Source: Candidatus Sumerlaeota bacterium | GTDB lineage: Bacteria > UBP6 > UBA1177 | Reading direction: 5' to 3' | NCBI GenBank assembly: GCA_007132725.1 | Contig: SLOD01000101.1 | Span: forward strand, 1-42,496 | DNA length: 42,496 bases | Part shown: positions 3,462 through 16,083 of the stretch, piece after piece | How the letters are laid out: each line of letters begins with the position of its first letter | How positions within the stretch are numbered: position 1 is the stretch's first letter | Notes under the pieces: generated by a model | Database searches by the model: none | The model's input: only the letters and a program-made list of their open reading frames with translations | Told to the model about the DNA's origin: nothing | Made by a program: the position numbers and the translations under genes

Positions 3462-3490
3462 TTGAAATATAGTTACTTAATGTATATTAT
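3462..3490 (+). promoter_or_regulatory. Putative sigma70-type promoter of the PqqD/radical SAM operon
   Basis: TTGAAA (3462-3467), 17-nt spacer, TATTAT (3485-3490), 48 nt before the PqqD start. Confidence 0.6.
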
Positions 3491-3537
3491 ATGTTCTTGG
3501 AAATTGAACACCTTTGGTTTAAAAGCGGAGGCATGCC

Positions 3538-3828
3538 TTGGATAAAAGAGTCTTCAAGATCAGAAATGAGGTTGCTTACAGAAAATCGAGTGACGGGAAC
3601 ATGACAATAGTCTCCCCTGTTACAGATAAAATAACAACCATCAACCTGACAGCAACTGAAATATGGGAAATGATAGACGGCCACAAAAATGTCTCTGAAA
3701 TTATTGAACAGTTTTACAGCACCCACTCAAAAGACAGTAACCTCCCCCCTAAAGACATGGTCGGGGAAGATGTGCTGGAAATTTTAAACAGTTTTTTGGA
3801 AAAACAGCTTGTTGAGCTTGTTAAATAA
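3538..3828 (+). CDS. PqqD family peptide-binding (RRE-type) protein
   Basis: 96 aa; ...KITTINLTATEIWEMIDGHKNVSEIIEQFY... matches the PqqD fold signature; TTG start, GGAGG 6 nt upstream. Confidence 0.85.
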   Translation: MDKRVFKIRNEVAYRKSSDGNMTIVSPVTDKITTINLTATEIWEMIDGHKNVSEIIEQFYSTHSKDSNLPPKDMVGEDVLEILNSFLEKQLVELVK

Positions 3829-3863
3829 AATGTTCGCCAATAAAATGATATCCGGAGGATCTT

Positions 3864-6800
3864 ATGAACCATCTTAGCAAAAGTAAATGGTTGTTTTTAT
3901 CCGCTATGTTAATAGCATCCGTCTTGTGGAGCTGTTCATCAAAAGAAACCTGTTCCGCAGACATTGAATGCAAAGAAGGGTTCTATTGCGGAGATGACAG
4001 AAAGTGTACTCAGTTTGAAAGTGATGACTATCAAATAATCTTTGAAAACCTGACAGACGGTATGACCGTTACTACAATAGACGATGTTGACAGATCTACT
4101 GATGACATAAAAATAAATATTGTTGTCCTTCTTAAAGAAACTAAAGATCACCTCCGTGAAAATATGGATGCAACTCTTTCTGTAAAATCTAAAACAGGGA
4201 AAACAACTGTCTTAAATGGGAAATTTATAAAAAACAGGGCCGTTTTTAAAAGTGTCAACCTCCCCGAAGGTGAAGTTACTGTCGAAAGTTGGGTTTCCAG
4301 AAATCCCGCTTTGAAAACTAAGGTAGAGATAAATGTCCGCAAAATGGGAATAGAGGTTTTCTATCTAAAAGGGGGTGAAGGCGGAACAGCGACTGTTCTT
4401 GAAGGAGCCACAATATATGATGATGACAACTATGATATAGAAAGTGATGACGGCATTTCGATTTATCTTACCGGAGAGACATTCGGAATGGAAAAAGGAG
4501 ATGCTGTTGAGATAATAATCCCAGAACTTAAAGAAACTCCGGTAGCAGAATCAATTGTCGGAGAAGATGGTTCTCTGATTTTCGGTCCGGTAGAGATACC
4601 TGTCTGGAAAAATGTAAGGATGTCCCTTGTTTCAGGAGATTACTCAAAAAGTATTTCTTTTTCTGTCGAGTCCTCTAAATACTGCGGTTTTATGCTTAAC
4701 ATAAGTAACGGAGATATTCTCGGCATTGCAAATGATGAAACACCGAACCTTCAAGGATTACAATACAATCTTAAGATCAGTGAGATAACCGGTTGCGGAA
4801 GTGGCAGCAGAGTCTATATTTACACGGGAGATGATGAAGAAAAAGAACCGGAACTTCAAAAATCTTTTTCCATTGCAGGCAGTTCCGTAGAAGAAAGAGT
4901 GACATTCAACCCCAGCACAGACCCCGATGATACAAAAAAGATCACTGTTTTAATAGAAGACGAAGACCTCGATGTTTTCGGACAGAGAACTGTCAGCGGC
5001 ATCATTGTAGACCTCGGTCTTCCGACAGGTGAAATAACATTCCCCGAAGCGGGAGATATCCTGACAATGGCAGATGATATTGACAGTGACACAGATGGGC
5101 TTCAGATAAACTTTCAAGGTGTTGCAAATGATACGGTTACTCCTCCGGTGAGCGTTGTTCTTAAACTTCAGGACAACATTATAGGAACTCTTGATGATGT
5201 CGAAGGACCTTTTTCCGTTCCATACACATTTACCCAGTCAGCACAAAGCGTTGTACTTGATGCTGAAATTACAGACAGAGCCGGGAACAGCTTTACTCTG
5301 TCCCAGCCTTTTTCTGTGGACATTGATTCCGGACTTACTTTTTACAGTATCTGCGGAGTAACAGGTTCCGATGTGGTCAACTTAATGTGGCTGAATTCAA
5401 CTCACGACGAAGATCCTTCCACTGACGAACTTCAATGCAGTGTCATATTAAAAGTTTCTGAAAACTCTTCTGCCGACTCTGTATCTCTTGCCATAGGAAA
5501 AGATGAACCTGTTAAAAAAAGTGTCAGTGCCGATGGTGAAGCATTTTTTGACATAGAGCTGGAAGACAGCAGTGACGGAATACTTCTGAAAGCCGAAGCT
5601 TTTATAGAAGATGATCCAATTGACGAAGTTACTCTCACAGTAAGAGTTGATACTGTTCCTCCAGTCGCCGGTCTTACGAACAACCTTCTCCTTAACAGCG
5701 GAGAAACCACATCTTCCCCCGATATAACATTTAATTTCGAGTGTTCAGAAAACCCCTGCACTTTCAACTCTCAACTTAACGATGAAACAATCGAAGACTT
5801 TACAACTGCCAATTCAAGAGTGATAACCGGACTCTCTGACGGAGAACATACAATTTCAGTCAGGGCTAAAGATGCGGCGGGGAATATAAGTGAAGAAACT
5901 GTCTTTAACTGGACAGTTGACACAGAAAATCCTGAAACGACCATTACTAAGGATCCGGGGGCAGGAACCGCTGCAAGTTTTGCACTTTTTGAATTTGAAT
6001 CTTCTAAAGATCCGTACAGATTTCACTGTAAACTTGAAAAAAATGGAAACAACTTTGTTCCTGACGATGACTCATGGGAAGAATGCAATACCGGAAAGAG
6101 AGACTACTACGGACTTCCCGAAGGAACTTACAGGTTCAGAGTCTCCGCACAGGATGCGGCAGGCAATGTTGATCCTTCTCCTGCCGAACATGTCTGGGTA
6201 GTGGGGTCAGCCGCCCCTGTAACGACAATAACGAACATTGAGCCGTCAGATACAGTTACAAATCAAGATCAAGTGGAATTTGAATTTGAAGCCACAGTTA
6301 CAAGCACTTTTGAGTGTAAACTTGAAAAAAGCGGAACCGTTATTGAGGATTGGACAGATTGCAGTTCAAAAACGAAAAGTTACTCATCACTCGATGACGG
6401 GTCTTATCTATTCCAGGTCAGAGCTACGGCTGCATATGGTGTAAAAGAAAACACCCCGGCTTCTTACGGATGGACAATTGATACTGTTCCTCCTTTTATA
6501 AGGATCAATTCTAAACCCTCAATATCCACTCCTTATGATTCCGGTTCTTTTATCTTTGAATGTGTAGGAGAAGTTTATCCCTGCACATTTGAATGTGAGC
6601 TTGACGGGAGTCCTGTCAACTGCTCAACAGGTCACTACAGTTTTGCCGGACTGGAAGAAGGTTCTCACAGATTTGTCATAGAAGCTACCGATGCTGCAGG
6701 AAATAAATCTATTCCTATAGATACGCCTCCTGATCATTCGTTCCTTAATGATTACTCTTGGGAAATAAATCCTCTTCTGCTTGGAGTAACAATAACTTCG

Positions 6801-9800
6801 AAACCTGATATACATTCGCCATCAAATGATGCCGAGTTTATCTTTGAGTCCAATAAAACAGCATCGTTCGAGTGTAAACTGAATGATGGCAGTTATGAGC
6901 CCTGCTCCTCTCCCTACAGCTACAGCGGTTTGTCCGAAGGAACTCACACATTCACTGTAAAAGCAAGCTTTGCCGAAGAAATCGCCTTTGACAGTCACAC
7001 ATGGACAGTTGACACACTTGATCCCGTAATAACCATTGACTCCGGTCCTGCAGACCCCACCAATCAGACAGGGGCTGTCTTTAATTTCTCCGCAAATGAA
7101 ACCGTCTCTTTTGAATGCAAACTTTCAACAGATGCCGACTGGTCTCCTTGCAGTTCTCCTAAAGTATATCCCGCAGGAACATTCGGTATTGAAGATACTG
7201 AACAGGAATATACTTTCGAAGTCAGAGGAACCGACCAGGCAGGGAACACCGGTACCACTTCATATACATGGACAGTTGACCTTGCTTTCCCTGAAATTCA
7301 GTGGATATCTCCTGTGCCCGGTCCTGACGGAAATGTGGTCGTTGGAAAATCTCATGATGTCTTTTCTGCAGATCCGGATGTTTACGGAATAAATGTTGTA
7401 GTGAGAGTATCCGGCAGCAATTCCGGTCAACCGATAAATGTTACAGGGTTTACAACACCCCCGGAATACCATATCGTCTATGTTGATAGTAGCCAACCTA
7501 AAAACTATACCCTTACAATAGGTCTTCAACATGGTGCAAGAGTTAACAATCCCTTAGTGATTTCCGTTGAAGATGATACCGGATCTTCTGCATCTATCGA
7601 TCAGCTTGTGATAGTGAACACTGAAATGCCCACAATAACTTGGGCATATCCTGGGAACAACCATAAGTTTGTTGCTTCTTCAACTGCTCCTCAGTTTACT
7701 TTCAATGTATGGAATGCGGAGCCTGGTTCAGTAGTCGAACTTATTGACTCCGATACAAACAACGTTGTTGCAACAGAGCTGACTGTTGGCGGAACTACCG
7801 GACTTCAGGAATATGTTCAGATCAACCCCGCTCTTGATGACAGATGTGCTCCTTATAAATTCCATGCAAGATTTTATGATGATCTTGACGGAATGTGGCA
7901 CTATACAAACTCTGTAACCGACGAAGCTCTTAAAACAGTCATATCTGTTACTGTAAACAGGAATCCTGCTGTAATAGATGCCGTTGTGATAGGTGATCCG
8001 ATGGATCCTGCTGTTACTGACACAGACAGAATACTTAACCGTGCAAAAAATATGAATGATGATCCTGACGGAGGGATGCAGATAGATATCACTGTCTACA
8101 TTTCTGACCCTGAAAATCCGGATGATACAAACAGAACAGTAAAACTTTTTACAGGATCAATGCTTCTTGCAACTTTGACAAGCCAGGAAGATGAAGCAGT
8201 TTTTGAAAAAGTTCCACTAAAAGAAGGTGATCACACGCTTAGAGTTGAAATTGCCGACTGCTCAGGGAACATAAGCTCAAAAACTCTTGAAAAAATTACT
8301 GTTGATACAATAAAACCGGAACTCACACTTTCTGCACCAAAAGGCAGTTCTTCCAACTGGAGGTGGCTGGTATTTGCCGATGATCCCGAACTTGGAACAA
8401 TAGACGGAGATGGATACTTTACCGGAATTGAAATGGTAGTGAATTCAAACGAGGAGATAGGTCCTTCTGTTGAAGTTATCCATACGGTCTATGATTATTC
8501 TGATAACCAGACCGATCAGAGCGACATATCTTCAAATGCTGTTGCAGGAGCCAGTAATGTCACCATTGATCTGCCTCCTCTTGAATATGGAAAGCACCGT
8601 TTTCGAGTCACAGTGGAAGATCTTGCCGGTAACAGCTCTACCATAGATGAAACATATGAAGTCAATGTAATTGTACCGCAGATAGAGTTCACAAATATCA
8701 GTGAAGGACAGGTGTTTGATACCGATGAAAACGAATCGGTACCGGGCTTCCAGATACTGCTTGAGATGGCCGTGGAAGATGTCGTGCCTCAAAGCAGTTA
8801 TGTCATAAAAGCCATCCCTGTTCTGTCACAAGGTGGAGATGCGGATGCCTCCAGATACGAAAAGACATGGACAGGATCTGCAACAATGGATGGCCCTGTT
8901 TCAAAATACCTGACCATGGGAGGTGGATGGTGGAGATTGTCCGCAACGATCAAAGATGATCATGGAAACGAATCAGGAAGTGTACACTACTATATAAAAA
9001 TCGAAAATGATGCTCCTTCAATAACTGTTAAAAAAGGTTACGGACACAGTATAGGTGCCGGTCCGGTCATTGATGGCTACTCTGAATCCGATCCTGCATG
9101 GATGCTCCCCGAAGATGTTGATTGTTCGGGGAATGATTGTTATACTGAACTTGAGATATGGACAGATGCTCCTGCCGGGTCAGATGTTTATATTTCAATT
9201 AACGGCGGGGGTGAAATTTCAGAAACAACAACCTCTCATTCAGGACAGTCTTATGCCGATTTCAGTGTGACACTTGACAGCTCCCTTGATTTTAACACCT
9301 TAACTGTTAAAATCATCTCAACGACAACGACCGAAAATGAAGAAACTTACTACATAAAAATTGACGAAACCCTGCCCGGACTGACACTCATCAATCCTGT
9401 TGACTGCTCTGCTCAGGAAGTTTGCAGGAGAATTGACATGATCAACGATCCGGGAACTGACTACATTGAGCTTGTAAAGCTGGGATATGGGTATGATGAT
9501 GACTTGATACCCGGCGGAGCACTTAACTTCAGACCATCAGGAAAAATAATTTTTGAAGTTGACGGAGCAACGGCAGGAACTGTCAAAGTGGAATCAGTAA
9601 CAGGAGACCCTGTTCCCGGCATAACAAACGGAGAAGCGACTATTCTTTATGACAACATAGCGGAAATTTACTATGCCGACTTTTCTAATATGACGGTCGC
9701 GGACACCAATCCTGACGGACAGACAGACTACGATCTTGTTTTTAAAGTTACAGAATCACCTTCAGGAGCAGTCTCTAAATATCTTGTAAAACTTCACCTC

Positions 9801-11435
9801 GACCTCTATCAACCTGAAACCATTGATATTTCAGAAAACCTGACCGTAAATCAAAAAACAGGGGAAGTTTCATTGACATGGAGTGCCGTAAAAGGTAACG
9901 ATTACGCTTTCGGGCCAAACCCCGAAGCTGTTTATCAATACGATATCCGCTATCAGGACTACAACGAAGGATCCTGCACTCTTGCAACAGCTTTTACTGA
10001 AGCGAAGAAACCTCTTGAGACAATAGCAGGGGCAGTTCCGTTACCTGATGAAGAAGGAGAAATAATGTCACATGACTTCTTTGTCAACAGAATCAATAAC
10101 GGTGAAAGCGGTGAAGAATTCAAAGAAGCCGATATTCACAAAAATAGAAACAGATATTGCTTCGCAGTAAGAGCAGTAGATGCGGTATATGACAGCGATG
10201 GAAATGTTCTTGCTGTTAACAATGGAAAAGTATTACCCTATGATGCCGGAAAAGTAAGCATGGAATGGGGAATGATAATGGATGCGCGTTCAGGATTTCA
10301 TAATTTTATAATCAGAAACCTCGGAGATATTGACGGAGACGGTCTTGATGATTTTGTAATCGCAGATTCCTACAGAAGAAATGCTGACGAAGAAGATTAT
10401 GCCGGCAATATCCGCATATATTTTTCAGACCCCGAAGGAGGCATGAATTTTGAACTCAGCGGCGGGGATGATGAATCTCTCGGACAGGGTATCAGCAGCA
10501 AAGCTGATTTCAATGGAGATGGTTTTCTTGACTTTGCCTACACTAACGCTGCGGGAGATGTCTATATTCACTACGGAACATCTCTCGGTCTTAATATTGC
10601 TCATTCCTACAGCTTTATTTCAAAAGACGGTTCCATTCAATACGGCAGAAGTATGGCAACCGGTGATTTTAATGGGGACGGATGTGACGATATCGTAATT
10701 TCTGCTCCGACAGCGAGTGGCGGAGGAACATCAAGAGGAGAAGTTTACATCTATTTTGGGCGTGGAAAAGAATGTTTTTCCAATGATCCGATAGAGGGAG
10801 ATGAGCCTGATGTCATTTTCCAGGGAATGAATAACAATGACCGCCTTGGGAGAGCTGAAATACACTCAGTTGGAGATATAAATGGAAATGGAAAAACCGA
10901 CTTTGCCTTTTCAACATTAAACAGCGTATACATAGCCTATGGTGGGGATCCAGGCGGAACAGTTTCCGCTTATACCATTACAGGACTAAAATCCATGCCC
11001 GGCTACAGAATAGGCCACGGTGATTTTAATGGAGACGGTTACTCCGATCTTGTTATCGGTGATGAAAACAGAATACTGGTCTATTACGGAAGTTCCGAAG
11101 GAATATCAGACTCTCCTTCAATGATAATAGATGACATTTCGCCTATTAATTCAACCTATACCCCCGCCGTCCCTGATTTTGCAATGGCTGTTTCTCATAA
11201 AATGGTTGATATAAACAATGACGGGTTAAGTGATCTGATCATTGCTTCTGACAGAGGGCTTCTGATCTATAACACGATAAACGGTTCCTTGATGGACATG
11301 CCTTCTGTTTTTGATCCGTTCATTGATACCTCTTCAGCAAACCTTAAACTGCTGTTGCTTGATCATGGCATAGTCTACTGTAATAGTGCGACGAATAAAG
11401 GAGACTGTTATTTCTTGAACTATAATGGAGAATAG
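3864..11435 (+). CDS. Giant (2523 aa) lipoprotein with bacterial Ig-like repeats and C-terminal FG-GAP/VCBS repeats
   Basis: Lipobox (VLWSC), EGF-like Cys cluster, repeated FECKLD...C..Y.GL.EGTHTFTVKA.D.AGN...W.VD modules, then about six DFNGDGxxD repeats (aa about 2150 onward). Confidence 0.92.
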   Translation: MNHLSKSKWLFLSAMLIASVLWSCSSKETCSADIECKEGFYCGDDRKCTQFESDDYQIIFENLTDGMTVTTIDDVDRSTDDIKINIVVLLKETKDHLRENMDATLSVKSKTGKTTVLNGKFIKNRAVFKSVNLPEGEVTVESWVSRNPALKTKVEINVRKMGIEVFYLKGGEGGTATVLEGATIYDDDNYDIESDDGISIYLTGETFGMEKGDAVEIIIPELKETPVAESIVGEDGSLIFGPVEIPVWKNVRMSLVSGDYSKSISFSVESSKYCGFMLNISNGDILGIANDETPNLQGLQYNLKISEITGCGSGSRVYIYTGDDEEKEPELQKSFSIAGSSVEERVTFNPSTDPDDTKKITVLIEDEDLDVFGQRTVSGIIVDLGLPTGEITFPEAGDILTMADDIDSDTDGLQINFQGVANDTVTPPVSVVLKLQDNIIGTLDDVEGPFSVPYTFTQSAQSVVLDAEITDRAGNSFTLSQPFSVDIDSGLTFYSICGVTGSDVVNLMWLNSTHDEDPSTDELQCSVILKVSENSSADSVSLAIGKDEPVKKSVSADGEAFFDIELEDSSDGILLKAEAFIEDDPIDEVTLTVRVDTVPPVAGLTNNLLLNSGETTSSPDITFNFECSENPCTFNSQLNDETIEDFTTANSRVITGLSDGEHTISVRAKDAAGNISEETVFNWTVDTENPETTITKDPGAGTAASFALFEFESSKDPYRFHCKLEKNGNNFVPDDDSWEECNTGKRDYYGLPEGTYRFRVSAQDAAGNVDPSPAEHVWVVGSAAPVTTITNIEPSDTVTNQDQVEFEFEATVTSTFECKLEKSGTVIEDWTDCSSKTKSYSSLDDGSYLFQVRATAAYGVKENTPASYGWTIDTVPPFIRINSKPSISTPYDSGSFIFECVGEVYPCTFECELDGSPVNCSTGHYSFAGLEEGSHRFVIEATDAAGNKSIPIDTPPDHSFLNDYSWEINPLLLGVTITSKPDIHSPSNDAEFIFESNKTASFECKLNDGSYEPCSSPYSYSGLSEGTHTFTVKASFAEEIAFDSHTWTVDTLDPVITIDSGPADPTNQTGAVFNFSANETVSFECKLSTDADWSPCSSPKVYPAGTFGIEDTEQEYTFEVRGTDQAGNTGTTSYTWTVDLAFPEIQWISPVPGPDGNVVVGKSHDVFSADPDVYGINVVVRVSGSNSGQPINVTGFTTPPEYHIVYVDSSQPKNYTLTIGLQHGARVNNPLVISVEDDTGSSASIDQLVIVNTEMPTITWAYPGNNHKFVASSTAPQFTFNVWNAEPGSVVELIDSDTNNVVATELTVGGTTGLQEYVQINPALDDRCAPYKFHARFYDDLDGMWHYTNSVTDEALKTVISVTVNRNPAVIDAVVIGDPMDPAVTDTDRILNRAKNMNDDPDGGMQIDITVYISDPENPDDTNRTVKLFTGSMLLATLTSQEDEAVFEKVPLKEGDHTLRVEIADCSGNISSKTLEKITVDTIKPELTLSAPKGSSSNWRWLVFADDPELGTIDGDGYFTGIEMVVNSNEEIGPSVEVIHTVYDYSDNQTDQSDISSNAVAGASNVTIDLPPLEYGKHRFRVTVEDLAGNSSTIDETYEVNVIVPQIEFTNISEGQVFDTDENESVPGFQILLEMAVEDVVPQSSYVIKAIPVLSQGGDADASRYEKTWTGSATMDGPVSKYLTMGGGWWRLSATIKDDHGNESGSVHYYIKIENDAPSITVKKGYGHSIGAGPVIDGYSESDPAWMLPEDVDCSGNDCYTELEIWTDAPAGSDVYISINGGGEISETTTSHSGQSYADFSVTLDSSLDFNTLTVKIISTTTTENEETYYIKIDETLPGLTLINPVDCSAQEVCRRIDMINDPGTDYIELVKLGYGYDDDLIPGGALNFRPSGKIIFEVDGATAGTVKVESVTGDPVPGITNGEATILYDNIAEIYYADFSNMTVADTNPDGQTDYDLVFKVTESPSGAVSKYLVKLHLDLYQPETIDISENLTVNQKTGEVSLTWSAVKGNDYAFGPNPEAVYQYDIRYQDYNEGSCTLATAFTEAKKPLETIAGAVPLPDEEGEIMSHDFFVNRINNGESGEEFKEADIHKNRNRYCFAVRAVDAVYDSDGNVLAVNNGKVLPYDAGKVSMEWGMIMDARSGFHNFIIRNLGDIDGDGLDDFVIADSYRRNADEEDYAGNIRIYFSDPEGGMNFELSGGDDESLGQGISSKADFNGDGFLDFAYTNAAGDVYIHYGTSLGLNIAHSYSFISKDGSIQYGRSMATGDFNGDGCDDIVISAPTASGGGTSRGEVYIYFGRGKECFSNDPIEGDEPDVIFQGMNNNDRLGRAEIHSVGDINGNGKTDFAFSTLNSVYIAYGGDPGGTVSAYTITGLKSMPGYRIGHGDFNGDGYSDLVIGDENRILVYYGSSEGISDSPSMIIDDISPINSTYTPAVPDFAMAVSHKMVDINNDGLSDLIIASDRGLLIYNTINGSLMDMPSVFDPFIDTSSANLKLLLLDHGIVYCNSATNKGDCYFLNYNGE

Positions 11436-11437
11436 TG

Positions 11438-11557
11438 ATGGAGAAAAGTAAAGATTATTTGAAACCCGGGATAATAGAAGAAACCTCTATTGATAGAAAA
11501 ATGGTGTATGCCGAACCTTATGATCAAAGACAAGGCTGTACAACAATTGTAGAGTAA
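11438..11557 (+). CDS. 39-aa small peptide, candidate RiPP precursor
   Basis: MEKSKDYLKPGIIEETSIDRKMVYAEPYDQRQGCTTIVE; GGAG 7 nt before ATG; starts 2 nt after the giant lipoprotein stop; TAATG overlap with the next gene. Absent from the ORF track. Confidence 0.8.
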   Translation: MEKSKDYLKPGIIEETSIDRKMVYAEPYDQRQGCTTIVE

Positions 11558-12111
11558 TGGAAAAACATTTAAAGGTATCCAGGGAATCTACTCTCAGGAA
11601 CCTTTACTCATCAAAAAAAGGACTTATCGTTCATTGTTCAGCACTGTCTGATGATGGGACTGTCTTTGCTGTTGCAGGCATTGCAGATACAGGAAAGTCA
11701 ACTCTTGCAAAAAGACTTAACGGAATAATGACTTCTGTTAACGATGATATGAATATTTTTGAATTTTCCGGCCATAAAAAAATCAAAGTTTCCACCTATT
11801 TTACTCAGGCGGAAAACCAGGGTTATCATTACCTCATAAATGAAAATGTTACAGGTTTCCTTAAAGCAGTACTTTTCCCTGTTAAAGAGTATGAAAAAGA
11901 ATCATGCATTGAGCATGTTAAAGACAAAGGGTATATTTGGAAAAAACTTCTTACTTGCATTGCACCGCCAATAAAAGATGAAGACCATCTTTTTCCGAAC
12001 TATCTGGAGATGATAGACAAACTAACAGTGACTGTTGATTTTTTTCATATTTATCACAATCTCAAAGATCCGGCAGAAAATATAGTAAAACTTCTAAGAT
12101 CAATAAAATGA
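11557..12111 (+). CDS. HPr kinase-like (HprK-related) P-loop protein
   Basis: Walker A AGIADTGKSTLAKRL, followed by TSVNDDMNIF resembling the HprK DD motif; start overlaps stop of the 39-aa ORF. Confidence 0.75.
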   Translation: MEKHLKVSRESTLRNLYSSKKGLIVHCSALSDDGTVFAVAGIADTGKSTLAKRLNGIMTSVNDDMNIFEFSGHKKIKVSTYFTQAENQGYHYLINENVTGFLKAVLFPVKEYEKESCIEHVKDKGYIWKKLLTCIAPPIKDEDHLFPNYLEMIDKLTVTVDFFHIYHNLKDPAENIVKLLRSIK

Positions 12112-13064
12112 AGGCTCTCTCTCTTGAAATAACCAATACCTGCAATGAAAAATGCAGACACTGCTACCAACCGGAAAATAGTGGAAAACAATTTATTTCC
12201 GATCTTGAACTTCTTAATAAAATGTTTGCTGAACTTAGTGAATCTGGATTTATATTTCTTTCTCTTACAGGAGGGGAACCCCTGCTCCATCCGGAGTTTA
12301 AAGAAATTTGTCTGCTCGCTCAAAAAAACAGATATATTATATCTGTCAAAACAAATGGAGTGCTCATAAATAACGACCTGGCTCAATTCTTAAAAAAACT
12401 GAAGCCTTCCTCAGTTGAAGTATCCCTATATTCGGCCGACCCAGAAGAACATGACTTTATAACCTGTGTAAAAGGTAGTTTTAATGCATCTGTTGAAGGA
12501 ATAATGGCACTTAAAAAACACAATGTAAAAGTTTCAGTTATGACACCTGTTTTAAATGGAATAAAAAAATGGAAAGAACTCCTTCCAGTCATGAAGAACA
12601 TGGGCGTTCCATGGAGTTGCTCCCCAAATATCCGCTCTTCCTTTGATGAAAGGGATGAAGTTGAACAGTTCAGGGGTGACTCCAGTTATCACCTCGATTT
12701 TTTTGAATTTATTAACGGTCATGAAAATCAGAAAAAACTAAACCTTGAAAATAAATGTTTTAAAGAGTGCGGTGGCGGAATTTCAACGATATGTGTTGCC
12801 CCCGACTACTCTGTCCGTGCATGTCTATCATACCCCGGATCAGTTGGAATTTATACCGGAGGCAATGCAAAAGAACTTCTTTCAAAAGCACGGAAACAAC
12901 TTGAAGAAAGATTTGCAAAACTTGAGTGTCATCAATGTGGACTTGTAAAATATTGTGATCCATGTCCCGCCCACTTAAAGATCGTTGACGGAGTCGGGAA
13001 ATGCGATCCCGCAAAAAAAGAATTTGTCAAAGCATACCTCAAGTTTTTTGGAGAAAAGGCGTGA
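12108..13064 (+). CDS. Radical SAM protein with SPASM-like C-terminal Cys cluster
   Basis: CNEKCRHC = CxxxCxxC; SLTGGEPLLHPEF; C-terminal CFKECGGGISTICVAPDYSVRACLSYPG...CHQCGLVKYCDPCPAH. Confidence 0.93.
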   Translation: MKALSLEITNTCNEKCRHCYQPENSGKQFISDLELLNKMFAELSESGFIFLSLTGGEPLLHPEFKEICLLAQKNRYIISVKTNGVLINNDLAQFLKKLKPSSVEVSLYSADPEEHDFITCVKGSFNASVEGIMALKKHNVKVSVMTPVLNGIKKWKELLPVMKNMGVPWSCSPNIRSSFDERDEVEQFRGDSSYHLDFFEFINGHENQKKLNLENKCFKECGGGISTICVAPDYSVRACLSYPGSVGIYTGGNAKELLSKARKQLEERFAKLECHQCGLVKYCDPCPAHLKIVDGVGKCDPAKKEFVKAYLKFFGEKA

Positions 13065-13435
13065 TACATCTGCCTGATAAAGTACTGGACAGCTTGCTTG
13101 ATAATGATGATCTTGTTGTAGCATCATCAAGTATGGAACCGGTTCTAAAGCCGGGGGATAAAATTAAAGTTGACAGTATCGATCCCGACAAAATATCCAC
13201 AGGGCAAGTAATTGTTTTTAAAGATAAAAGCGGAAAGCTGATAGTTCACAGAGTTATTAAAAGATCAAACTTTGTTCTCACTACAGCAGGAGACAATATA
13301 CGGAAATTTGATGACCCTGTCCATATCCATGATGTTGTCGGTGTTGTGAAAGATCTTGAAAGAAAAATTTCCCTTTCAAAATATTCAAGGATTTTAAGAG
13401 CTGTCAAAAGAAGATTGCTAAGCATCTGGAATTAA
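13061..13435 (+). CDS. S26-family, SipW/ER-type signal peptidase-like protein
   Basis: GTG start at 13061 with GGAG upstream and 4-nt overlap with the radical SAM gene (the track starts the ORF at 13001). SSSMEPVLKPGD, GQVIVFKDKSGKLIVHRVI, TAGDN motifs (Ser/His type). Confidence 0.8.
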   Translation: MIHLPDKVLDSLLDNDDLVVASSSMEPVLKPGDKIKVDSIDPDKISTGQVIVFKDKSGKLIVHRVIKRSNFVLTTAGDNIRKFDDPVHIHDVVGVVKDLERKISLSKYSRILRAVKRRLLSIWN

Positions 13436-13536: not shown

Positions 13537-16083
13537 ATGATGAAAAAATTATTTGTTTTGCTGGCAGTTGCAATGATGTTCTCTACACTTTCTGCTTCTG
13601 CACAAAAGATCTACAGAAGAGACGGTTCTTTTTTTGAAGTAAAAAGGAATCATGGTGTGTTCGCAGAAAAAATAATGCCCGGGGTTTTAAAATCTCCGGA
13701 GTATTATTCGCTCAAGTGGGATTTTAGCGGCAAATTTGTTGTCATACACAAAGATGGAAGAGGTGATCTTCCTGTGTATCTTTATGATGCAAATACTATT
13801 GTTGCCGACACAAATCTTTTTTATGGCGGAGACAAAGATCCCGACTACATAGCTCTCAAGTACAACTTGAAGCTTGTAGAAATATTACCTGTCTACGGGC
13901 TTTACGAGTTTGAAACCTCATGGAACAGTGACAGCGTAAAAGTTGCTCAGTCAATAGTAGAAAACGGTGACGGTTTTGCTTTCCCCAACATCATCAGGAG
14001 AATGGAGCTTAGAACTAACCCTGTAAGATTTCCCATTGAAGATAAATATTACAAAGAAGGCTATCAGTGGAAACTCAAAAACACAGGTCAAGGAATAGCT
14101 CCTCAGGGAACTAAAATTGATACATTGAAAAACGCTGACATACGGTTTGAGCAGGCAATGGAGTTTATCTATAATGCCATTGAAAATAATGAGCTGCCCG
14201 ATTTTGCCATATCAAAAGTGGCAATTATGGACAGCGGGGTTGATATGGACCACCCTGACCTTAAAAACAAACTTGAGCCAGGTTGGAACATGGTTCATAA
14301 CAGAGAAGGCGGTGACCCCGGGGACATAGAAAGCGGAGGGATCATGGGGACATCAGGATACGCTCATGGAACCAACTGTGCCGGTGTTGCGGCGGCTGAA
14401 GGAAATGACATAGGAGTTGTAGGAGTGTGTCCATGGTGTGACATTTATCCGGTTACATACATGGAAGGCGGTTTCGGAGGAGCGGCAGATGAAAAACAGC
14501 TTCTGGTCGTATATCAGAAATATACAGAAGATCCCTCGATCGGTGCTATAAACTGCTCTTTCGGACCAATGGCAGGGTTTGGAATGGTGCCTATAAGTGC
14601 CGCTGAAATGGAAAGCCATGAACTTTTTATGAAAGAAGGAAGGGGCGGTCTTGGCGGAGTTATCATATATGCCAGCGGAAATGATGGGATAGATGCAAGC
14701 TATCACCGTCTTATGGGACACAAATTTCAGTTTGAAAGAAACGGTGAAGATGTTGAAAATAAAGTTGTTGTTGTCGGAGCAACTTCAGCATGGGATACAA
14801 AAGTGGGTTACTCTAATTACGGATACGATATTGATATTGTGGCACCATCACTGTCAAGCAGACCTTTACTTGGAATAACAACTACCTATCTTACAGGATA
14901 CGGTGATCTTGATGACGATTACACACTTCAGTTCAGTGGAACATCTTCTGCAGCTCCTGTAGTTACAGGTCTTTTCGGTGTAATTTTTTCCATCAATCCG
15001 GAACTTACCCTTGAAGAAGCTGTTGAAATAATGCGCCAGAGTTCTGATAAAATAAATCCCGAAACAGGCTTCTGGAGCTCAAACGGTCACAGTGTAAAGT
15101 TCGGATATGGAAGAGTTAATCTTCTTAAAGCAGCAAGACTTGCAGCGGGACTTGAGATGTGCGAAACCATATCGGACGAAACGAACAACAATATGGACGA
15201 CAACTGCGATGGATGGGTTGATGAAGGTTTTGCAAAAAATATTTCGTTCGTTACATCTCCATGTGAGTCTGACTCTGATTGTGTCAACGGTGATTTTTCT
15301 GAGGAAGATGTCGAATGTTTGAAAGGAGATTTCAGAATTTTCAGCTTTTCTGAAGGTTACTGTACCATCAGAAACAGAAATTTTGCATGCCCCGACGGAA
15401 CCCAGACATACTCCGGGTCTCAGAGTGACAGGAACTGCTTCCTTGAGTGCAACGATGAAAACCAGTGTCCTTCAGGGTTTACCTGTGATGACAGTGTTCT
15501 TGGAAAATGTTGGCCTATCTGTGAGTCAGACAGTGACTGCAGCGATGAAGCTTACTGTGACGGAGGTCTTTGCAGAAGAAATCCGTCCGAGCCGGGAGGA
15601 GAGTGTGATGACAGCACTGATTGTAAATACGGAGCTATGTGCATTACACAAATTCCCAACGGTTTTTGTCTTAAAATGTGCAGCAGCGATGCACAGTGTG
15701 GAGATGAAGGAGCAAAATGTGTCAAAGTTGACATGATGGGTCAGGGACAGTATGACATTTGTCTTCCAAGCTGTGAATCCAGTGATGACTGCAGAAGTTT
15801 CGGAACAATGGGATCTATGATGTGCCATGAAGTTTATAGCGGAAAAGAAGGAGTTTGCGGTATGCCTTGTCAAAATGATGCAGGCTGCTTTGATGATGAT
15901 GCCGTATGCAAAAATTCCAAGTGTGTTTTAGATGGCGATGACGAAGATACAGATACTGACAAAGAGGAATCTGACGATGAAACAGCCGACAAAGATGTCG
16001 GTTTTGAAGATGACGAGTTCCCTGATGATGAAGAGGAAAAAGCAGATAAAAAGAAATCGGGCTGCTCTGTTATTTTGATTTAA
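13537..16083 (+). CDS. Secreted S8 subtilisin-like serine protease with Cys-rich repeats and acidic C-terminal tail
   Basis: Asp (VAIMDSGVDMDHPDL), His (HGTNCAGVAAAE), Ser (FSGTSSAAPVVTG) motifs; signal peptide; repeats like CESDSDCSDEAYCDGGLC; ends ...DKKKSGCSVILI. Start set by GGAGG before ATGATG. Confidence 0.92.
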   Translation: MMKKLFVLLAVAMMFSTLSASAQKIYRRDGSFFEVKRNHGVFAEKIMPGVLKSPEYYSLKWDFSGKFVVIHKDGRGDLPVYLYDANTIVADTNLFYGGDKDPDYIALKYNLKLVEILPVYGLYEFETSWNSDSVKVAQSIVENGDGFAFPNIIRRMELRTNPVRFPIEDKYYKEGYQWKLKNTGQGIAPQGTKIDTLKNADIRFEQAMEFIYNAIENNELPDFAISKVAIMDSGVDMDHPDLKNKLEPGWNMVHNREGGDPGDIESGGIMGTSGYAHGTNCAGVAAAEGNDIGVVGVCPWCDIYPVTYMEGGFGGAADEKQLLVVYQKYTEDPSIGAINCSFGPMAGFGMVPISAAEMESHELFMKEGRGGLGGVIIYASGNDGIDASYHRLMGHKFQFERNGEDVENKVVVVGATSAWDTKVGYSNYGYDIDIVAPSLSSRPLLGITTTYLTGYGDLDDDYTLQFSGTSSAAPVVTGLFGVIFSINPELTLEEAVEIMRQSSDKINPETGFWSSNGHSVKFGYGRVNLLKAARLAAGLEMCETISDETNNNMDDNCDGWVDEGFAKNISFVTSPCESDSDCVNGDFSEEDVECLKGDFRIFSFSEGYCTIRNRNFACPDGTQTYSGSQSDRNCFLECNDENQCPSGFTCDDSVLGKCWPICESDSDCSDEAYCDGGLCRRNPSEPGGECDDSTDCKYGAMCITQIPNGFCLKMCSSDAQCGDEGAKCVKVDMMGQGQYDICLPSCESSDDCRSFGTMGSMMCHEVYSGKEGVCGMPCQNDAGCFDDDAVCKNSKCVLDGDDEDTDTDKEESDDETADKDVGFEDDEFPDDEEEKADKKKSGCSVILI

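Follow-up and report, generated by a model that had tools for sequence, protein, structure and literature searches.

The window is the whole stretch of DNA that was analyzed, 42,496 nucleotides of a contig from a Candidatus Sumerlaeota bacterium. It contains a six gene operon whose product is most likely a small peptide with modifications (RiPP). Sequence comparisons point to a real and conserved RiPP system in three phyla, where a known toolkit is joined to a new partner, a giant Ig-like/FG-GAP lipoprotein. The operon probably encodes a small RiPP together with this lipoprotein as its dedicated surface partner. The recurrence of the same set in three phyla suggests an undescribed kind of cooperation between peptide and lipoprotein. 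The precursor layout, its conservation, the gene sets and their co-occurrence are read directly from the genomes compared here.

Operon organization

The six genes are on the + strand and extend from position 3538 to 13435; they are those described in an earlier reading of the letters alone (the sequence-only reading). The individual features are listed in Table 1. There is a gap of 35 nt between the PqqD and lipoprotein genes and of 2 nt between the lipoprotein and peptide genes. The peptide and kinase genes share 1 nt at the junction TAATG, and the kinase/radical SAM and radical SAM/S26 genes overlap by 4 nt each. The sequence confirms this one-strand arrangement, gaps and overlaps included, as it had been described. 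The same reading had named TTGAAA-17-TATTAT as a good promoter. The site is present, but it does not stand out from chance; the 35 promoter-like sites are no significant excess over the 25.7 +/- 5.6 of shuffles, and the promoter is therefore not counted as evidence.

The operon has as its direct neighbours the genes of an S8 protease and of a protein of the Steroid_dh family. The secreted S8 protease gene (13540-16083) is next after the operon with a gap of 104 nt, and is excluded from it. This subtilase displays a Cys-rich C-terminal part, an acidic tail and an unusual C-terminus, KKKSGCSVILI. No transporter gene is found within the six gene operon.

Table 1. Positions of the operon genes and the promoter-like site in the window, and of a protein found at related loci
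Feature	Position	Strand	Remarks
Possible sigma-70-type promoter TTGAAA-17-TATTAT	3462..3490	+	10/12 matches; weak
PqqD/RRE-type peptide-binding protein, 96 aa	3538..3828	+	TTG start; PF05402
Giant Ig-like/FG-GAP lipoprotein, 2523 aa	3864..11435	+	lipobox, repeat domains, homologues
RiPP-type precursor peptide MEKSKDYLKPGIIEETSIDRKMVYAEPYDQRQGCTTIVE, 39 aa	11438..11557	+	conserved leader, core Cys
HprK-like P-loop kinase, 184 aa	11557..12111	+	invariant motifs; remote profile match
Radical SAM enzyme, SPASM-like Cys pattern, 318 aa	12108..13064	+	PF04055; invariant Cys
SipW-like S26 peptidase, 124 aa	13061..13435	+	GTG start; TIGR02228; likely leader peptidase
Spermine_synth-domain protein of g3 genomes	L056 10644-13040; L054 7171-9567; L058 10361-12760		

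Precursor peptide

On sequence comparison the 39 aa open reading frame can be taken as a genuine RiPP-type precursor. The leader motif Y-x-[KR]-P-x-[IV]-x-E-E and a Cys in the core are conserved across relatives. The window peptide has YLKPGI in its leader, which fits YxxPx[VLI], and 26 peptides in all carry this motif. In five sister species of genus g3 the leader MKKNYQKPEIIEEIELDRKVVYAS is identical at the protein level; 18 of its 24 codons vary and there are 0 non-synonymous changes. The cores of these five species are hypervariable in sequence and length, with the Cys kept. The codon pattern is the classical leader/core signature and points to strict purifying selection on the g3 leader beside a hypervariable core.

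A small open reading frame with the motif YxxPx[IVL] is found at most 600 nt past the lipoprotein stop codon in 20 of 20 loci from three phyla, these being all the loci where the 3′ end of the lipoprotein gene could be read; the phyla are few and the count ignores shared descent. As a control, the other PqqD loci, 1.40 Mb in total, contain only five YxxP motif open reading frames, and two of the five are themselves precursor-like. The motif was partly derived from the 20 loci that were tested, and thus the loci in the phylum of genome G154, which were found by lipoprotein or PqqD, provide the cleanest test. Here the motif-bearing open reading frame is present in 4 of 4. The occurrence of the lipoprotein gene and the small open reading frame side by side in 20 loci is far beyond chance. 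The conserved leader with its putative RRE-binding motif and the small open reading frame at every one of these loci bear out the earlier proposal of a RiPP-type operon with a 39 aa precursor. The check suggested with that proposal, whether relatives keep the radical SAM and PqqD genes without a conserved small open reading frame, gave the opposite outcome.

The genome has a second cassette, on contig G000:C68 (locus L033, 5771-7436), with the gene order kinase - radical SAM - peptide and a homologous peptide, MKTYERPQVIEELSIERKLVHANVRIVGNPSHPGCTYCPGTGSPVGS. It is situated between the likely uvrA and proS genes without PqqD or lipoprotein, and probably uses the PqqD of the window in trans. In G004 there are two cassettes within one cluster (L032), also with homologous peptides. 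The kinases of the window and the first G004 cassette are 65% identical and those of C68 and the second G004 cassette 61%, and identities between types are 46-50%. Core types track the cassette type, CTT[IL]V being present in the window and the first G004 cassette and GCxxCPG in C68 and the second. The kinase/radical SAM/peptide cassettes of the two types pair by orthology, and the core types go along.

The giant lipoprotein

The lipoprotein displays a lipobox Cys at position 24, a conserved N-terminal segment with four Cys residues, Big_13 repeats, and FG-GAP repeats at the C-terminal end. The C-terminal 422 residues match exactly 12 of the 28 genomes of the phylum, and 12 of the 12 matches are at peptide loci; no case of this C-terminal part without the peptide is found among the 28. 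The homologues in the 12 genomes adjoin peptide/kinase genes. As the two are so constantly linked, peptide and lipoprotein may have a common function at the surface, with the lipoprotein as a possible receptor, display scaffold or export/immunity partner. Co-variation of core and lipoprotein in four g3 genomes displays no pattern, the sample being too small.

Many bacterial genomes encode FG-GAP and Ig lipoproteins, and PqqD/HprK-like pairs without the lipoprotein are found in many phyla. The cluster could then be an LPP-like RiPP cluster in which the giant lipoprotein is a mere hitchhiker that does something unrelated at the surface. The bsf lasso cluster of Bradymonas is bordered by an FG-GAP protein which its authors judged to be uninvolved (PMC10368454). 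However, a hitchhiker is unlikely in the present case. The lipoprotein gene is between the PqqD and peptide genes in the window with gaps of only 2-35 nt, its place is kept in the phylum and in genome G118 (in the phylum of G154 the gene order is rearranged), and no genome of the phylum has its C-terminal part while lacking the peptide. The Bradymonas protein, set aside by its authors, may be another case of the arrangement, and the link of FG-GAP proteins with peptide clusters may be wider.

Distribution and modularity

The kinase profile matches 14 of the 28 genomes of the phylum and the peptide profile gives the same cluster loci. The place of PqqD ahead of the lipoprotein gene is kept in the phylum relatives. 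G001 and G002 have PqqD and the start of the lipoprotein gene at a contig end. In the three f4 genomes, where the lipoprotein has diverged, PqqD precedes it and a YxKP peptide follows it. G019 is a partial exception, with another gene directly upstream of the lipoprotein N-terminus and a contig that ends inside the lipoprotein gene. PqqD is not seen in G012, where the contig begins inside the lipoprotein gene.

Radical SAM and S26 genes are within the clusters of the window genome (G000), G004 and G020-G023, and neither is present in those of five g3 genomes. The cluster of G026 has the kinase and S26 genes without the radical SAM gene. No kinase is beside the peptide in G025, G027 and G118. 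The set is modular: PqqD/RRE, lipoprotein and peptide form the core, the kinase is usual, and radical SAM and S26 are variable. The kinase is found in five of 15 g3 genomes, several g3 genomes being 97-99% complete. This patchy presence, together with the variable core, points to an accessory trait under diversifying selection and not a housekeeping or cofactor function.

Genome G118, alone in its phylum, was reached via the lipoprotein N-terminal profile. It has PqqD, a 2292 aa Ig/FG-GAP lipoprotein and the peptide MNNELQKNKDTALKDKKPYVKPQINTEPL..., in this order. In a second phylum the six gene set is complete in three genomes (G154, G386 and G387) in the order kinase - PqqD - radical SAM - lipoprotein - peptide - S26, and a fourth (G388) has the same set minus the radical SAM gene. 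The lipoproteins of the three genomes are of Ig/FG-GAP type and 1.1-1.2 kaa in length, and their peptide leaders display YxxPxIx[ST]E. Among 79 PqqD loci surveyed in other phyla, an HprK-like kinase is in the fetched stretch of about one third, thus the PqqD/HprK-like pairing is widespread. Only at G154 among these 79 loci is such a lipoprotein beside the set.

Other open reading frames were observed near the clusters. In G026 a 322 aa Cys-containing protein without a Pfam match (L059 8571-9539) is beside the kinase and S26 genes, on the strand opposite to the lipoprotein, and is possibly an alternative modifying enzyme. In g3 the kinase gene is followed by one for a protein of ~800 aa that has a Spermine_synth domain (PF01564) and, at its N-terminus, apparent membrane spans. 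A weaker Spermine_synth match is downstream of an f3 cluster (L061 10374-12398).

PqqD protein and HprK-like kinase

The PqqD protein matches PF05402 at 35.9 bits, with a cut-off of 23.4. Elsewhere in the genome there is a single further PqqD-like gene (L002, G000:C189, 1354-1683; PF05402 over cut-off). It is between two large multi-membrane-span transporter-like genes, and no RiPP genes are seen there.

In the kinase an alignment of seven homologues (A1) displays H26, GKST at 46-49 and N62-D63 as invariant residues; the P-loop, His and ND[DE] motifs are conserved. No Pfam family, including HPr kinase, matches over cut-off, and ScmC/HprK-related families match below cut-off. The best solved relatives of the kinase profile are ATP-PEPCK chains (E 0.018), and ATP-PEPCK shares the P-loop type of HprK. 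The sequence is therefore assigned as HprK-like on a remote relationship. A single-sequence AlphaFold2 model of the kinase gave a pLDDT of 31 and was discarded.

Within the phylum, Ser is found at 19 residues past the leader Tyr (Tyr+19) in 7 of 7 peptides whose locus has the kinase but no radical SAM gene linked to it, but since these peptides are non-independent (five are from sister species, and the G024 contig ends near the kinase) the pattern is a lead only. Ser is at this position in 0 of 12 radical-SAM-linked peptides, which have Glu, Ile, Asn or Cys instead. The G388 peptide has Ser one residue later, at Tyr+20. In BsfA, Ser3 is 19 residues past the leader Tyr(-17) (PMC10368454). From this comparison, kinase-only lineages probably make phosphopeptides and radical SAM lineages have probably shifted to Cys-based chemistry. 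The window peptide belongs with the radical-SAM-linked type and not with the Tyr+19 Ser type.

The window and first G004 cores have Glu where a Ser (core position 3 equivalent) would be phosphorylated, and this, like the clusters of G025, G027 and G118 with no kinase beside the peptide, would be expected if the kinase acted on the lipoprotein or another protein, or in control of processing. Such a target is decidedly unlikely, as the kinase gene is directly after the peptide gene, each kinase paralogue goes with its own type of peptide, the substrates of such kinases in the literature are YxxP precursors, and Ser at Tyr+19 is invariant where no enzyme other than the kinase is linked. Phosphorylation of the peptide is preferred. 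No support was found for the earlier suggestion that the HprK-like protein serves as a scaffold.

Radical SAM enzyme and S26 peptidase

The radical SAM protein matches PF04055 at 93.6 bits. Residues C12, C16, C19, C217, C239, C274, C277, C283, C286 and C299 are invariant in seven sequences (alignment A2), and the protein displays the CxxxCxxC motif plus C-terminal auxiliary-cluster Cys residues of a maturase. Its best solved relative is SkfB (E 2.8e-11 over 142 residues). A scan of genome contigs with this protein gave remote relatives only, and the distribution of the set was worked out by profile searches of genomes instead. The enzyme had been regarded as the central modifier, a role that does not agree with the absence of its gene from the clusters of the five g3 genomes, G026 and G388, where lipoprotein, peptide and kinase remain, as does PqqD except on the truncated contig of G012. 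As the gene comes and goes among clusters, the enzyme is considered accessory. In L118 and L122 (G011 and G017) a PqqD domain and a radical SAM domain related to that of the window are in one open reading frame of ~500 aa.

Cofactor pathways have a layout of PqqD, radical SAM/SPASM enzyme and protease without a transporter, but a RiPP-derived redox cofactor like PQQ or mycofactocin, made by these proteins, is very improbable as the product. It is rejected because of the hypervariable core, which has insertions even within one genus where the precursor cores of cofactor pathways are fixed; in addition, g3 and G388 can do without the radical SAM enzyme and the operon has no dedicated dehydrogenase gene.

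The S26 protein matches PF10502 and the NCBIfam archaeal-type signal peptidase TIGR02228 (61.8 bits, cut-off 51.85). It has Ser24 in the motif S-M-x-P and His63, a spacing of 39, and no evident membrane segment in its 124 residues. By analogy with described systems it likely removes the leader. Cleavage at a signal-peptidase-like [VL]xA fits the peptides of the window, G004 and C68 (V-Y-A, V-H-A) and not all f3 peptides, some of which have LFTC, LFNC or LFKC. For this reason no cleavage site is claimed.

Relation to known systems

Among described systems the LPP family, the linear polyphosphorylated peptides of Bacillota (LppA/K/B/S/D/N; PMC13381572), comes closest, and the operon would work in a similar way. 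Both have a discrete RRE, a YxxPx[VLI] leader with a variable C-terminus and an archaeal-type SipW-like peptidase, the remotely assigned kinase of the window is the probable counterpart of the HprK-like kinase of LPP, and the Ser-His spacing of 39 in the window S26 protein is that of LppS (S29-H68, PMC13381572). However, the operon is without the MsbA-like LppD transporter and the LppN NTP transferase, and the window peptide stretch YLKPGIIEETSIDRKMVYAE is without the HQxIxFET part of the leader. As the full leader consensus YxxPxVLxHQxIxFETxxS, LppD and LppN were not found, the cluster is not filed as an LPP member. In addition, the window has a radical SAM enzyme and the giant Ig/FG-GAP lipoprotein, and the set is in other phyla.

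Phosphorylated lasso systems such as paeninodin and Bradymonas Bsf (PMC10368454, PMC5067487) are similar in that a PqqD-like B1 protein binds their YxxPxL leader, an HprK-like kinase acts on the precursor and, in bsf, an FG-GAP protein is a neighbour. Unlike these, the window has a radical SAM enzyme and no ABC transporter, and neither the Asn-synthetase-like macrolactam cyclase (C) nor the B2 protease is found among the operon proteins. In SynChlorMet (NCBIfam ScmC/D/E/F), HprK-like, PqqD-like and radical SAM/SPASM proteins also occur together, and ScmF is the best NCBIfam relative of the window radical SAM protein. However, all ScmC/D/E/F matches are far under the curated cut-offs (ScmF 90 of 400 bits), and to our knowledge a lipoprotein and an S26 protein are not parts of SynChlorMet. 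SkfB and other radical SAM/SPASM maturases share CxxxCxxC, a SPASM-like Cys set and a Cys-containing core, but the similarity is only remote.

Within the open literature, most subscription papers being outside its scope, no paper was found that joins FG-GAP, PqqD and lipoprotein, or HPr kinase, PqqD and radical SAM; the Bradymonas paper alone joins FG-GAP, RiPP and precursor peptide. The sequence-only reading knew of no matching system. This is too broad with respect to the kinase, RRE and signal-peptidase-like protease, which are the LPP toolkit, but stands for the lipoprotein link and the radical SAM enzyme, which are unmatched in the literature found.

Proposed mechanism

PqqD, as a discrete RRE, would bind the Tyr-x-Lys-Pro-x-Ile leader and present the precursor to the modifying enzymes. 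PqqD-like RREs are known to bind YxxPxL leaders (PMC12710340; PMC5067487; PMC10368454). The HprK-like kinase would phosphorylate the core and, in the window lineage, the radical SAM/SPASM enzyme may add a second modification, probably at the conserved core Cys. Phosphorylation, Cys chemistry or both would be guided by the RRE. The SipW-like Ser/His peptidase would then cut off the leader, and the freed variable core may act at the cell surface with the giant Ig/FG-GAP lipoprotein.

Precedents in LPP and lasso systems suggest the binding by the RRE, the phosphorylation and the removal of the leader. In LPP, phosphorylation of core Ser3 and loss of the leader are the work of an RRE, an HprK-like kinase and a SipW-like peptidase (LppB, LppK and LppS), and the cleavage requires the RRE (PMC13381572). 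In Bradymonas, BsfK phosphorylates core Ser3 aided by the RRE BsfB1 (PMC10368454). The earlier proposal of SipW-like leader cleavage and HprK-like phosphorylation thus has a direct published precedent in LPP (PMC13381572). The Cys chemistry, the export and the role of the lipoprotein are put forward here as conjecture.

More tentatively, the set could be a new RiPP class of at least three phyla, where a variable modified peptide is carried, displayed or sensed at the surface by its dedicated lipoprotein, as a matched pair for recognition or contact-dependent interaction. We know of no biological role for phosphorylated RiPPs with YxxP leaders (LPP, paeninodin). A version locked to a giant lipoprotein provides a concrete genetic handle on what the peptide acts with or where it acts. 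As the core is hypervariable and is encoded next to a large surface protein, a role in recognition or interference can be tested. The findings also show the RRE-HprK-SipW-like toolkit beyond Bacillota, in several phyla that have been little studied.

Precursor-like sequences at other loci

In G130, of another phylum, L166 has tandem YxKP peptides at 9182-9346 and 9457-9627 (MKRYSKPIIRSEQIFEKTALACDD... and MKKYLKPVVVSERIMERTALKCED...). No lipoprotein or enzyme of the set adjoins them, and kinase, PqqD and radical SAM genes are together elsewhere in the genome (L204). In G041, of another phylum, a Cys-containing small open reading frame with a PxxIxEE-like sequence (L019 1196-1450, RKFSPPRILEEMVIEARAGVCNSPP...) is directly before a radical SAM gene. 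L189 (3952-4152) and L212 (2340-2480), PqqD loci of other phyla, contain likely YxxP precursors, EYSPPKLDSEPVFREALLGCNIRG... and MKRKYVKPEIKSERLEATSLAGTCACSG..., respectively.
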